From: Corallococcus macrosporus
GTDB taxonomy: Bacteria > Myxococcota > Myxococcia > Myxococcales > Myxococcaceae
Assembly: GCF_017302985.1 (NCBI RefSeq)
Contig: NZ_JAFIMU010000007.1
Location: 434,001 to 498,000, forward strand
Length of the DNA stretch: 64,000 bases
Direction: 5' to 3'
Each line of letters begins with the position of its first letter. Positions within the stretch are counted from its first letter, which is position 1. Positions 33,971 to 37,517 of the stretch are shown piece by piece. The notes under the pieces are model-generated. The model was not told the origin of the DNA and ran no database searches. It saw only the letters and a program-made list of their open reading frames with translations. The position numbers were made by a program, and so were the translations under genes.

Positions 33971-34189
33971 ATGCCCGTGGAACGCGTGGCTGGTGGAGCC
34001 AGCCTGGTGGACGTGCTGGACCGCCTGCTGGACAGGGGCCTGCGCTTCGACCCGCCCGCCCTGGAAGCCCTGGGGCGCGCCACGCCCCGTGAAGGGGAGG
34101 CGCGCATCGTGGTGGCATTTTCGGAGGTTCGCACCGCAGACTCGCCGGAACGCGGCCGTTCCCCGCGTCCCCCTTCATCCGGAGCGTAA
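33971..34189 (+). CDS. Short GvpA/GvpJ-family protein with altered core
   Basis: 72 residues. The opening MPVERVAGGASLVDVLDR and LLDRG matches the N-terminal helix of gas-vesicle shell proteins (MPVE...SSLADVLDRVLDKG), and GEARIVVAFSEV matches their second strand region EARIVIASVET. Between them, 35 residues align without a gap to GvpA, but the hydrophobic DAWVRVSLVGIELL core is replaced by FDPPALEALGRATP, including two prolines, so it probably cannot build a shell. The C-terminus is Arg/Ser/Pro-rich. AAGGAGC lies ten bases before the ATG. Four bases separate it from a histidine kinase gene; a GvpL/GvpF gene ends the operon. Confidence 0.78.
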   Translation: MPVERVAGGASLVDVLDRLLDRGLRFDPPALEALGRATPREGEARIVVAFSEVRTADSPERGRSPRPPSSGA

Positions 34190-34193
34190 GGTC

Positions 34194-36323
34194 GTGGCGT
34201 CCCCAGCCCCGCTGCCCCCCGCCGAAGTCGACCCCGGGGCTCGCCTCGTGCTCGCCGAGCACCTGCTCGCCTGCGAGTCCGCCGTCGCCTGTGCGCGGGC
34301 GGTCGTGGAGTGGCTCGCGCGCAGGCATGGCGCGCCGGCCGCCTGTGTCGGTCCCGGGGAGGGCGCGCCCACGTCCGTGTGCCTCGCCAGCGAGGGGCTG
34401 ACGGGCGCGCAGCAGGCCGCGCTGGCCCGGGCGTGGGATGCACCGGGCTCGCCGCTCTCCACCTTCCGCACGCGTCCCGGGGCGCGGTGGCTGGCGGCGG
34501 ACGCGCTGGAGGGCGCGGCGATGCCGGGCGGCTTCCTCGCGGTGCCGCTGGGCCGGCCCGGAGCCACGGCCGTGGCGCTGCTGATGGTGGGGCTGCCCGG
34601 CCCGGCCGTGCCAGAGGACGTGGCGTGGGTGGCGTCCTCGGCGGGGCCGCACCTGGCCCGGCAGCTGGCGTCGGATGCGCGGGCGCCGCGCCGCCCGGAG
34701 CCGGACCGGCTGCTTCGCCGGGTCATCAACGCGGTGTCGGATCCGGTGCTGCTGACGGACACGGAGGGCACGCTGCTCTTCGCCAACGCCCGCGCGGAAG
34801 GCCTGCTGGTGGCGGGCCCGGACGCGAGCCCCGGCCGCACGCGGGCGGTGGAGCTCAACCAGCGGCTGTTCCGGGAGACGCTCGCGCAGGGCGGCACCAC
34901 GGTGCACCGGCGCGAGGTGCCGCTGGTGGATCCGCTGGAGGGCATGGACCTGCTCTTCGAGCTGGTCACCACGCCGGTGCTGGCCCCGGACGGGCCGTCC
35001 GTGGTGGTGAGCGTGCTGCGCAACCTCACGGACCTGGGCCGCGCCACGCAGGCGCTGGGAGAGAGCTACCGGCAGCTGCGCGCCACGGAGCGCGAGGCCC
35101 GCAGCGACCGCCACCGCCTGGACCGCGTGCTGGACTCGGTGGCGGACCCCATCATCCTCACCGACCCCGCGGGCGGCATGGTGATGATGAACGACCCGGC
35201 CGAGCGCCTCTTCGCGTGGCCCCAGGCCCAGGGCACCTCGGGCGAGGGCACGGCGGACGAGGCCATCCTGCGGCGGGTGCGCGCCAACGACGCCCTCTTC
35301 GCGTCGTTCCTCGGCAACCTGCTGGGCCCGGTGAACGCGAGCGTGTCGCGCTGGAAGAGCCAGCTCACCCTGGACGACCCGGGCACCGGCTCGCCCGTGC
35401 CCATGGAGGCCATGGCCAACAAGGTGCTGGGAGACGGCGGCGAACTGACGGGCATCGTCACCGTCTTCCACGACCGCTCGGAGGTGCTGGAGCGGGCGCG
35501 GCTGCTGGAGCGCGTGAAGGAGGTCTCCAGCGAGCTGGAGGCGCGCGTGCAGTCCGCCACCGCGGAGCTGGCGGAGCAGAACGAGAAGCTGCGCCGGCAG
35601 GCCATCCAGTTGGAGCAGGCGAGCGCGGCCAAGTCGCAGTTCCTGGCCAACATGTCGCACGAGTTCCGCACGCCGCTCAACGCCATCCTCGGCTACACGA
35701 ACATGCTCCTGCAGGGCGTGTCCGGGGAGATGACGCCGCCGCAGCGCCGCAACCTCACGCGCATCGACTCCAACGGGCGGCACCTGCTGGAGGTCATCAA
35801 CGAAATCCTGGACATCACCCGCATCGAAGCCGGGCGGATGCCGCTGCACCTGTCGGACTTCGGCATCCCGGAGCTGCTCCAGGAGGTGATGGCGGAGATG
35901 GACCCCATCATCGCGCGCAGCAAGCTGACGGTGGAGACGCGGCTGGACGCGTCGCTGCCGGGGGTGTGGAGCGACCGACAGAAGGTGAAGCAGATTGTCC
36001 TCAACCTGTTGTCCAACGCGCTGAAGTTCACGCACGAGGGCGGCGTGCACATCGCGGCGGAGTATCAGAACGCCACCGGCACCGTGGCCATCTCGGTGAA
36101 GGACACAGGGATTGGAATCGACGTGTCGAACCAGGAGAAGATCTTCGAGGACTTCCAGCAGGTGGACAGCTCCCCCACGCGAGCCTATGGGGGCACGGGC
36201 CTGGGCCTCTCCATCTGCCGCCGTCTGGCCGCGATGCTGGGGGGACGCGTCTCCCTCCAGAGCGCTCCGGGCCAGGGTTCGACCTTCACCCTGCACTTTC
36301 CACGACGCGCGAGACGGACATGA
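34194..36323 (+). CDS. Sensor histidine kinase, GAF-like plus two PAS domains
   Basis: 709 residues from a GTG start preceded by GGAG. Residues about 15-155 look like a degenerate GAF domain, about 170-290 (RVINAVSDPVLLTDTEGTLLFANA) and about 305-440 (RVLDSVADPIILTDPAGGMVMMNDP) are PAS domains, and 450-480 form a coiled coil. The HisKA phosphorylation site is AKSQFLANMSHEFRTPLNAILGY (His about 490). The ATPase boxes are LNLLSNALKFT, VKDTGIGIDVS and GGTGLGLSICRRLA. No transmembrane segment is seen, so it senses inside the cell. The receiver gene overlaps its stop (ATGA), so the two work as a pair. Confidence 0.93.
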   Translation: MASPAPLPPAEVDPGARLVLAEHLLACESAVACARAVVEWLARRHGAPAACVGPGEGAPTSVCLASEGLTGAQQAALARAWDAPGSPLSTFRTRPGARWLAADALEGAAMPGGFLAVPLGRPGATAVALLMVGLPGPAVPEDVAWVASSAGPHLARQLASDARAPRRPEPDRLLRRVINAVSDPVLLTDTEGTLLFANARAEGLLVAGPDASPGRTRAVELNQRLFRETLAQGGTTVHRREVPLVDPLEGMDLLFELVTTPVLAPDGPSVVVSVLRNLTDLGRATQALGESYRQLRATEREARSDRHRLDRVLDSVADPIILTDPAGGMVMMNDPAERLFAWPQAQGTSGEGTADEAILRRVRANDALFASFLGNLLGPVNASVSRWKSQLTLDDPGTGSPVPMEAMANKVLGDGGELTGIVTVFHDRSEVLERARLLERVKEVSSELEARVQSATAELAEQNEKLRRQAIQLEQASAAKSQFLANMSHEFRTPLNAILGYTNMLLQGVSGEMTPPQRRNLTRIDSNGRHLLEVINEILDITRIEAGRMPLHLSDFGIPELLQEVMAEMDPIIARSKLTVETRLDASLPGVWSDRQKVKQIVLNLLSNALKFTHEGGVHIAAEYQNATGTVAISVKDTGIGIDVSNQEKIFEDFQQVDSSPTRAYGGTGLGLSICRRLAAMLGGRVSLQSAPGQGSTFTLHFPRRARRT

Positions 36324-36730
36324 CGAACACCCCGGAAAAACAGAAGCCGCTCGTCCTGGTGGTGGATGACTACCAGGATGCCCGGGAGATGTACGCGGAG
36401 TACCTGGAGTTCTCCGGCTTCCGCGTGGCGGAGGCGAAGAACGGCCAGGAGGCGCTGGACAAGGCCTTCGAGCTGGTGCCGGACGTCATCCTGATGGACC
36501 TGTCCTTGCCGGTGATGGACGGCTGGGAGGCGACGCGGCGGCTGAAGGGCGACGTGCGCACGAAGGCCATCCCGGTGGTGGCGCTGACGGGGCACGCGCT
36601 GAAGGGCCACACGGACGACGCGAACGAGGCCGGGTGTGACGCGTACGTCACCAAGCCGTGCCTGCCGGACGCGCTGGTGGACCAGGTGAAGAAGATGATT
36701 GCCCGGCGCGAGGCGGCATCCGCGCGCTGA
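36320..36730 (+). CDS. Stand-alone response-regulator receiver
   Basis: 136 residues, receiver domain only. The acidic pocket is VLVVDDYQDAREM, the phospho-acceptor is in VILMDLSLPVMDGWEA (Asp about residue 60), with the switch threonine in VVALTGHALKG and the lysine in CDAYVTKPCLP. There is no DNA-binding domain, so it acts by protein contacts, possibly on the Gvp proteins or as a phosphate sink for the kinase. Translation is coupled to the kinase by a four-base overlap. Confidence 0.93.
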   Translation: MTNTPEKQKPLVLVVDDYQDAREMYAEYLEFSGFRVAEAKNGQEALDKAFELVPDVILMDLSLPVMDGWEATRRLKGDVRTKAIPVVALTGHALKGHTDDANEAGCDAYVTKPCLPDALVDQVKKMIARREAASAR

Positions 36731-36758
36731 ACCGGTCGTGCAGGAAGGTGGGCACGTC

Positions 36759-37517
36759 ATGACGACGAAGACCCCGGCGGAGTCCTCGCGGGAAACGCGG
36801 GCGCACTACCTCTACGGCATCGTGCGCGAGGACGGCGGCTGGGAGCCGGACCTCGCGGGGCTGGGCTCGGCGCCGGTGCGCACGGTGCGGGAGGCAGGCC
36901 TCGCGGCGCTGGTGTCCGACGTCGCGGGCCCTCGGGTGGTGCCCACGCGGGAGCACCTGTTGATGCACCAGCGCGTCACCGAGGCCGTGGTGCGCGAGCA
37001 CACGCTGGTGCCGGTGGCCTTCGGGACGGTGCTGCCGACGGAGGAGCGCGTGCGGGAGCTGTTGCGCGTGGCGCGCGCCCCGCTGACCCGGGCGCTGTCG
37101 GAGCTGGAGGGCCGGGTGGAGCTGGGGCTGAAGGTGTACTGCCACGGCGACGCGCTGACGCGCCGGCTGGTGGAGGCGAACCCGGAGCTGTCGCGCGGGG
37201 CTTCGGAGCCCGAGGAGGACCACGAGGCGCGGCTGGAGCTGGCGCTGCGCGACTGCACCACGAAGGACCTGGACGTCCTGAAGGCGGGCCTGCGTCCGCT
37301 GGCGGAGGCCATGCACGAGGCGCCGCCCCTGGGTGAGCGGATGATGTTGAACGCGGCCTTCCTGGTGGACCGCACGCGGGTGGCCGCGTTCGAGGCGCGG
37401 GTGACGTCGCTGGTGGCTCGGCTGGACGCGTACACGTTCCGGTTCACGGGGCCGTGGCCGGCGTACAGCTTCGTGGACGTGCGGCTGGACGTGGAGTCGG
37501 TGTCCGACGCGCGGTGA
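36759..37517 (+). CDS. GvpL/GvpF-family gas-vesicle protein
   Basis: 252 residues with the family hallmarks: an N-terminal ferredoxin-like half opening ARAHYLYGIVRE (HYLYGIV), then LLMHQRVTEAVVREHTLVPVAFGTVLPTEERVRELL, a helical middle, a second half with NAAFLVDRTRVAAFEARVTSL, and the C-terminal FTGPWPAYSFV. In gas-vesicle producers GvpF/GvpL contact GvpA and act early in shell assembly. Here it lies downstream of a kinase-receiver pair and a modified GvpA-like protein in one operon and no other assembly gene is nearby, so a signalling or regulatory role is likelier than flotation. It converges on the Gld-type operon with a three-base gap. Confidence 0.9.
   Translation: MTTKTPAESSRETRAHYLYGIVREDGGWEPDLAGLGSAPVRTVREAGLAALVSDVAGPRVVPTREHLLMHQRVTEAVVREHTLVPVAFGTVLPTEERVRELLRVARAPLTRALSELEGRVELGLKVYCHGDALTRRLVEANPELSRGASEPEEDHEARLELALRDCTTKDLDVLKAGLRPLAEAMHEAPPLGERMMLNAAFLVDRTRVAAFEARVTSLVARLDAYTFRFTGPWPAYSFVDVRLDVESVSDAR

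Follow-up and report, generated by a model that had tools for sequence, protein, structure and literature searches.

An operon of Corallococcus and related bacteria that appears to be a gas-vesicle gene set reduced to a putative signalling unit

The window analyzed here, a 64,000-nucleotide stretch of the Corallococcus macrosporus genome (assembly GCF_017302985.1, contig NZ_JAFIMU010000007.1, positions 434,001 to 498,000), contains four closely spaced genes on the same (+) strand, in the order gvpA-like gene, PAS/PAS histidine kinase, stand-alone receiver and gvpL/F. The parts belong to known families, and together they form a conserved, reduced unit that is undescribed: searches of open-access text on gas vesicles, GvpF/GvpL and myxobacteria found no publication on this gene set, as a preliminary description made from the DNA letters had expected. 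The genes and associated elements are as follows, with positions counted from the first letter of the window and g1, g5, g7, g8 and g19 denoting genera, of which g1, the window's own, contains Corallococcus.

33853 to 33867, + strand: conserved upstream block GGTGTTGGTCAGTCA, a candidate promoter or operator, from aligned upstream regions.
33954 to 33959, + strand: AAGGAG, the likely ribosome-binding site of the gvpA-like gene, from sequence, with GGAG preserved in the aligned upstream regions.
33971 to 34189, + strand: gvpA-like gene coding for an eroded GvpA of 72 residues; the same frame is present in 52 of 53 genomes of g1, g5, g7, g8 and g19.
33971 to 34051, + strand: residues 1–27 of the gvpA-like protein, read as the GvpA N-terminus and helix alpha1 and as the constrained part, from nonsynonymous and synonymous differences, invariant residues and a low-confidence model.
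34181 to 34184, + strand: GGAG in the final codons of the gvpA-like gene, the likely ribosome-binding site of the kinase gene (translational coupling).
34194 to 36323, + strand: soluble histidine kinase of 709 residues with a GTG start, comprising an N-terminal domain, PAS, PAS, HisKA and HATPase_c, from Pfam.
36320 to 36730, + strand: stand-alone CheY-like receiver of 136 residues without an output domain, from Pfam Response_reg and an alignment of 13 orthologues.
36759 to 37517, + strand: GvpL/GvpF-family protein of 252 residues, from PF06386 and structure matches.

BLASTP and a series of intermediates identify the small protein as a descendant of GvpA. Taken alone it is weak evidence for GvpA, since its profile scores lie under the cut-offs: 15.7 bits against PF00741 (cut-off 25), covering only profile positions 1–14 of 39, and 21.7 bits (expectation value, E, 1.6e-4) against the best NCBIfam GvpA model, for which the cut-off is 100. 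First, BLASTP aligns it at 43% over 65 residues with the GvpA that lies beside the orthologous kinase in genome G005; the full-length G005 protein starts with MPVERASGGTSLIDVLDRVLDKG and the window protein with MPVERVAGGASLVDVLDRLLDRG. Second, an intermediate from genome G081 (locus L099) scores 29.6 bits on PF00741, above the cut-off, and matches the full-length G005 GvpA at 45% over 71 residues. Third, the erosion is graded, with intermediates in g7 and g8 and, in g5, a second half without visible likeness to GvpA. The shell-forming core, alpha1-beta-beta-alpha2, was not found in the window protein; the corresponding region is hydrophilic and poorly conserved, and the peak 19-residue hydropathy is 0.72, compared with 1.79 in the full-length G005 GvpA. 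A structure model of low confidence (mean predicted local distance difference test score, pLDDT, 63.5) places a helix at residues 12–22 and has zero strands. Across 31 sequences, M1, G8, S11, D14, D17, R18, D21 and G23 are invariant. The preliminary description had seen a 72-residue GvpA relative whose hydrophobic core was replaced and carried two prolines; the descent and the replaced core are borne out, but the alignment rejects the prolines as conserved features. A chance reading frame was likewise rejected, given the recurrence of the frame across the five genera, its conserved N-terminus and selection on its amino acids.

The other three proteins retain recognizable family features. Two PAS regions, HisKA and HATPase_c are recognized in the kinase, whose SHE(F/L)RTP, N, G1 and G2 motifs are intact in 13 aligned orthologues; a GAF-like domain had also been suggested, but the N-terminal region, approximately the first 170 residues, gives no GAF hit in Pfam at E values up to 1. 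This region is conserved between the window kinase and the f2 kinases. In the aligned g7/g8 kinases (L057, L061 and L099), the whole N-terminal domain is absent and the remaining module is preserved, so the input differs there. The receiver, recognized as such from the outset, matches Response_reg at 88.9 bits, with key residues D60, D16/D17, T90 and K112; by their motifs, this receiver and the HisKA/HATPase kinase constitute a two-component pair with intact catalytic residues. The GvpL/GvpF assignment is unambiguous, at 209.9 bits and E 7.8e-62 against PF06386 (cut-off 23.6). Sequence searches of the PDB return the GvpF crystal structures 6l5d (E 3.7e-14) and 4qsg (E 5.3e-12), which are also the best fold matches of the structure model (pLDDT 87.6), with Foldseek giving E 9.6e-16 and a template modelling (TM) score of 0.75 for 4qsg and TM 0.78–0.79 for 6l5d. 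The modelled protein thus has the GvpF fold.

The operon's small gene is the sole PF00741 match at E <= 1 in the window's genome (9.8 megabases, Mb; 99.99% complete), which contains one GvpL/F copy and no GvpA (PF00741) or GvpK above cut-off; GvpG, GvpN and GvpO were not searched. A full gas-vesicle cluster elsewhere in this genome was rejected for GvpA, GvpL/F and GvpK, and the earlier observation that no other gvp gene is near extends genome-wide for these families. The preliminary description had staked its view on two points, and on both the outcome is favorable: selection on amino acids preserves the small frame, and the rest of the genome yielded no gvp cluster in the families searched.

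Among 145 genomes of the order, GvpL/F is present in 73 and a PF00741 gene above cut-off in 31. A PAS-PAS kinase model (A1), built from six of the kinases that it finds, has one match each in 63 of the 145, all at E 3e-121 or better; no more than 16 first-look candidates were scored in each genome, and among them nothing else matched down to 1e-45. All 63 kinase-bearing genomes are within the set of 73 with GvpL/F. Beside the kinase, gvpA is eroded in 52 genomes, full-length in nine (G002–G006, G012, G037, G041 and G085) and not found in two (G039 and G084). A search for the four-gene order in other genomes, which had been proposed as a check, therefore recovers the eroded module in 15 of 16 g1 genomes, two of g5, seven of g7, one of g8 and 27 of g19, or 52 of 53, with G062 the sole exception. 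Contig ends divide the module in G004, G006, G084, G102, G115 and G119, and the small gene of G119 was confirmed by sequence. In G106 (L096), the module GvpL is truncated (65 bits); peptide, kinase and receiver are present, and gas-vesicle genes also form a set at another place in that genome. Among 190 phylum genomes searched (completeness at least 70%), those outside the order with GvpL/F at E <= 1e-20 are G154 and G165 alone. Three non-myxobacterial GvpL loci (L010–L012) have no kinase or receiver match of at least 60 bits within the stretch examined, in one contig scan.

This distribution bears on whether the unit still serves buoyancy, by regulating a gas-vesicle cluster elsewhere or by building small gas-filled bodies itself. 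In 13 of the 52 eroded-module genomes, a PF00741 gene above cut-off is indeed present at another locus (G069, G080–G083, G106, G107, G111, G112 and G116–G119). The other 39 have no other PF00741 match above cut-off, and they include the window's own nearly complete genome, in which such a role is contradicted: GvpK is absent above cut-off there, and the small protein has no hydrophobic hairpin sequence. A link to gas vesicles of either kind is accordingly very improbable, and a signalling module in place of a buoyancy organelle, as the preliminary description had proposed, is very likely.

The same gene order also occurs within complete gas-vesicle gene sets. In G005 (L102), gvpA, kinase, receiver and gvpF lie in a cluster whose ten scanned frames comprise three Gas_vesicle (GvpA/J-type) genes, three GvpL/F genes, GvpK, a two-domain ArsA ATPase and two frames without a match; G005 is the only one of these sets in which Pfam was used to identify each gene. 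The order recurs on one contig in G002 (61% complete, kinase frame broken, L110), G003, G012, G037, G041 and G085, and is split by contig ends in G004 and G006. The window operon and the G005 set share this order and, by tree, orthologous kinases and GvpF; the G005 set differs in its full-length GvpA and its further Gas_vesicle and GvpL/F genes, GvpK and ArsA-like ATPase. The two-domain ArsA-type ATPase of the G005 cluster occupies positions 11257–13485 of L102. ArsA homologues have likewise been noted to adjoin gvp genes of other clusters, whereas the one of Myxococcus xanthus does not (PMC2963123).

Phylogenies bear on the relation of the two forms. In a tree of 28 selected kinases (L093 and L119 entered with an overlong start), the 20 eroded-module rows form a single clade (100/100), and when the tree is rooted on f2, f4 and f6, G085, a complete form of the same family, stands next to that clade (99/98). 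In a tree of 44 selected GvpL/F proteins, 20 of them module copies, the outgroup does not separate on a single branch. A clade there unites 13 lone-module rows (99/99), and other GvpL/F copies stand apart with lower support (69/91). Because intermediates join both forms and the eroded form is one kinase clade, the operon is almost certainly a reduced gas-vesicle operon, as far as sequence comparison can tell. In the complete gene sets, gvpA and gvpF flank this kinase and receiver, an arrangement which indicates that the kinase link is older than the loss of the other gvp genes.

Selection on the four genes was compared in g1 (14 rows), g19 (24 rows) and g7/g8 (8 rows) by omega, the pooled pairwise Nei-Gojobori ratio of nonsynonymous to synonymous change; kinase rows L050 (one frame with the receiver), L093 and L119 (wrong start) and gvpL row L096 (truncated) were left out. 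Omega is 0.26–0.32 for the kinase, 0.17–0.23 for the receiver and 0.42–0.56 for GvpL. In the small protein, it is 0.28, 0.17 and 0.15 (g1, g19 and g7/g8, respectively) over residues 1–27, and rises to 0.59, 1.37 and 0.92 over residues 28–42, 0.57, 0.67 and 1.43 over residues 43–55, and 0.43, 0.57 and 0.41 over the remainder past residue 55. The ratio of nonsynonymous to synonymous differences per site (pN/pS) for residues 2–27 versus the rest is 0.31 versus 0.58 in g1 (928 of 1000 column bootstraps in that direction), 0.21 versus 0.88 in g19 (1000 of 1000, with 26 rows) and 0.19 versus 0.82 in g7/g8 (999 of 1000). Since pS over residues 1–27 (0.21–0.31) resembles that of the kinase gene (0.19–0.32), the constraint acts on amino acids, and conservation of this segment at the DNA level only was rejected. 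Guanine-plus-cytosine (GC) content by codon position is coding-like over residues 1–27 (0.85/0.41/0.85) and flat over codons 43–73 (0.71/0.68/0.65). In Corallococcus, pN (0.045) and pS (0.076) are both low over residues 43–55, and some DNA-level constraint may operate there.

Purifying selection of this strength on kinase and receiver, with intact catalytic motifs and an order preserved across five genera, speaks against the idea that the unit is a decaying relic without function. Progressive erosion of GvpA, the truncated GvpL of G106 and the absence of the module from G062 would fit such decay, which is nonetheless highly unlikely.

A more serious alternative is that the gvpA remnant is a translational leader only, whose ribosome entry site and stop supply the kinase and whose peptide is inert, with function residing in the kinase, receiver and GvpL/F. 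Four bases separate the small-gene stop from the kinase start, the kinase and receiver genes overlap by 4 bases, and a gap of 28 bases precedes gvpL, coordinates that agree with the overlap and short gaps given in the preliminary description. All 50 eroded rows have a GGAG inside the final four small-gene codons, and in 49 of them a start codon lies 4 bases past the small-gene stop; in the remaining row, L075, the distance is 5 bases. With these GGAG, stop and start junctions conserved, translational coupling of peptide and kinase is likely. The leader explanation draws further support from the near-neutral second half of the protein in two of three groups, from the flat codon-position GC at residues 43–73 and from the two genomes, G084 and G039, in which gvpA was not found. 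It does not account for the low pN/pS of residues 2–27 (0.19–0.31) at a segment whose synonymous sites change about as freely as those of the kinase gene, nor for a helix motif kept in 52 genomes; a leader requires no specific peptide. We consider it unlikely, if worth keeping in view. The 4-base kinase/receiver overlap is found in 48 of 49 rows holding both genes. The exception is L050 (G067), in which a single open frame spans kinase and receiver; an indel in a draft assembly is the probable cause, a hybrid kinase a possible one.

Retention of residues 1–27 acquires meaning from work on GvpF. In Halobacterium split green fluorescent protein assays, GvpF is the sole GvpA partner among GvpF to GvpM; the fragment A1-22, helix alpha1 alone, gives the strongest GvpF signal (rf 41, compared with 20 for whole GvpA), and fragments A20-47 and A44-76 give rf <1 (PMC7688916). 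Changes at GvpA R15, K19, G20, D24, A27, R28, G33 and E40 weaken GvpF binding (PMC7688916). For an operon expressed in E. coli, GvpF is suggested to be a GvpA chaperone, with truncated alpha1 sufficient (PMC11445434). An offset of +3 maps the eight Halobacterium positions to R18, K22, G23, D27, V30, R31, G36 and E43 of the G005 GvpA, where seven of eight letters agree. The window protein keeps R18, G23, D27 and E43 and has R in place of K22. Across 31 rows, R18 and G23 never vary and 28 rows have D or E at position 27; every one of the seven Corallococcus-genus rows and of the six full-length rows has E43. What selection has kept, residues 1–27 with alpha1, is by analogy largely the part that GvpF is known to bind. 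The operon resembles the assembly systems of both reports (PMC7688916; PMC11445434) in encoding a GvpF-fold protein with the GvpA alpha1 N-terminus; it differs from them in its shortened GvpA, in the kinase and receiver between the genes and in having no other gvp gene in the families searched. On this analogy, the contact between alpha1 and the GvpF-like protein has rather probably been retained.

Several observations weigh against a retained contact and its control by the receiver. First, changes at R28 and E40 in full-length Halobacterium GvpA strongly cut GvpF binding, and Halobacterium GvpA is bound by GvpF, not GvpL (PMC7688916); the window protein lacks R31, the counterpart of R28, and G36, E43, the counterpart of E40, is present in none of 18 eroded rows outside Corallococcus, and the PF06386 family model cannot separate GvpF from GvpL. 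Second, the GvpL-tree path (summed branch lengths) is 1.68 to the window as against 0.19 to G005, and the corresponding kinase-tree paths are 1.07 and 0.78. This is a sign that GvpL in lone modules is under changed constraint and evolving faster, and the old binding surface may therefore be relaxed. Third, the lone GvpL row of G084 falls outside the lone-module clade, and gvpA was not found next to the kinase-receiver-GvpL/F unit in G084 (broken contigs; L122/L109) or in G039 (L100), so the peptide is not indispensable. Finally, the boundary at residue 27 was chosen after the alignment had been inspected, and the selection contrast is weaker in Corallococcus, as the bootstraps above reflect. 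The GvpL/F of G039 is of another subtype, scoring 25 bits against the window protein and grouping with other GvpL copies.

The receiver has no output (DNA-binding) domain, and its effect should therefore come about through contact with another protein or by passing phosphate onward. The second of these would suit an ordinary two-component phosphorelay with its output elsewhere in the cell, in which GvpL/F has become a scaffold or chaperone of kinase or receiver and has given up its dealings with GvpA. Spo0F is a receiver that hands phosphate onward, and CheY-like and Spo0F-like systems likewise pair a soluble PAS kinase with an overlapping stand-alone receiver gene; in the operon described here, the partner genes are those of gas-vesicle proteins. 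A phosphorelay of this type would fit the lone receiver and a GvpL that changes faster in lone modules than it does next to the kinase of a complete cluster. Set against it, gvpA and gvpF already flanked the pair in gas-vesicle gene sets, and all 63 genomes in which the kinase was found also have GvpL/F. We consider the phosphorelay about as unlikely as the leader. Regulatory genes inside a gvp cluster have a precedent in gvrA, gvrB and gvrC of Serratia sp. ATCC 39006; GvrA is an NtrC-like sigma-54 regulator of gvpA1 transcription (PMC4982088), whereas in the window a DNA-binding domain is missing from the receiver and the gas-vesicle genes have been lost.

The most economical scheme that we infer is a receiver-gated contact between GvpF and the peptide. 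Sequence comparison shows that the window's lineage has lost the neighbouring gvp genes, and that its GvpA has lost the hydrophobic hairpin region and kept the N-terminus and alpha1. In the scheme, the GvpF-like protein would still bind the alpha1 peptide as GvpF binds GvpA. The soluble kinase would sense a cytoplasmic cue and phosphorylate the receiver, whose output would be a protein contact, most simply with GvpF; phosphorylation would then set which client GvpF holds, the alpha1 peptide or a different one, and translational coupling of peptide and kinase would set their ratio. Taken as a whole, a gas-vesicle operon reduced to a regulatory core in which the receiver gates the contact of GvpF with alpha1 is an explanation that we hold to be evenly poised. 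Its separate step of receiver action on GvpF is tentative. More speculative still, and doubtful at present, is the generalization that a former chaperone-client contact of an organelle, that of GvpF with the alpha1 peptide, has become a phosphorylation-controlled partner switch, kept by myxobacteria after organelle loss along with a kinase and receiver that had earlier gated assembly post-translationally, and now controlling a different client.

Upstream of the operon, a gene coding for a flavin adenine dinucleotide (FAD) oxidoreductase with a Rieske domain (32230–33744) is divergent, and downstream, a frame without a Pfam match (37521–38774) is convergent; the transcription unit thus probably consists of these four genes only. 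The block GGTGTTGGTCAGTCA is common to the aligned upstream regions of 10 Corallococcus-genus loci and 11 g19 loci, and with at most one mismatch it occurs once in the 9.8 Mb genome, as does a reversed control pattern. Three short upstream blocks, around ACAGAG, GGTGTTGGTCAGTCA and CGCGTTAGAA, appear conserved in the Corallococcus-genus and g19 alignments, in a spacer that is shared with the divergent gene.

Gas vesicles have been studied as buoyancy organelles and as acoustic tools, and, to our knowledge, little is understood of how a cell times GvpA assembly. The position of a kinase and a receiver that does not bind DNA between gvpA and gvpF suggests that gas-vesicle assembly is controlled at the protein level; where the cluster is complete, these two proteins would gate the release of GvpA by its chaperone and so regulate assembly after translation. 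The reduced form would be a control unit without the insoluble shell and may offer a tractable setting in which to study how GvpF recognizes GvpA. It also appears to be a clear case of an organelle gene set eroding to a signalling core, with the intermediates still extant.

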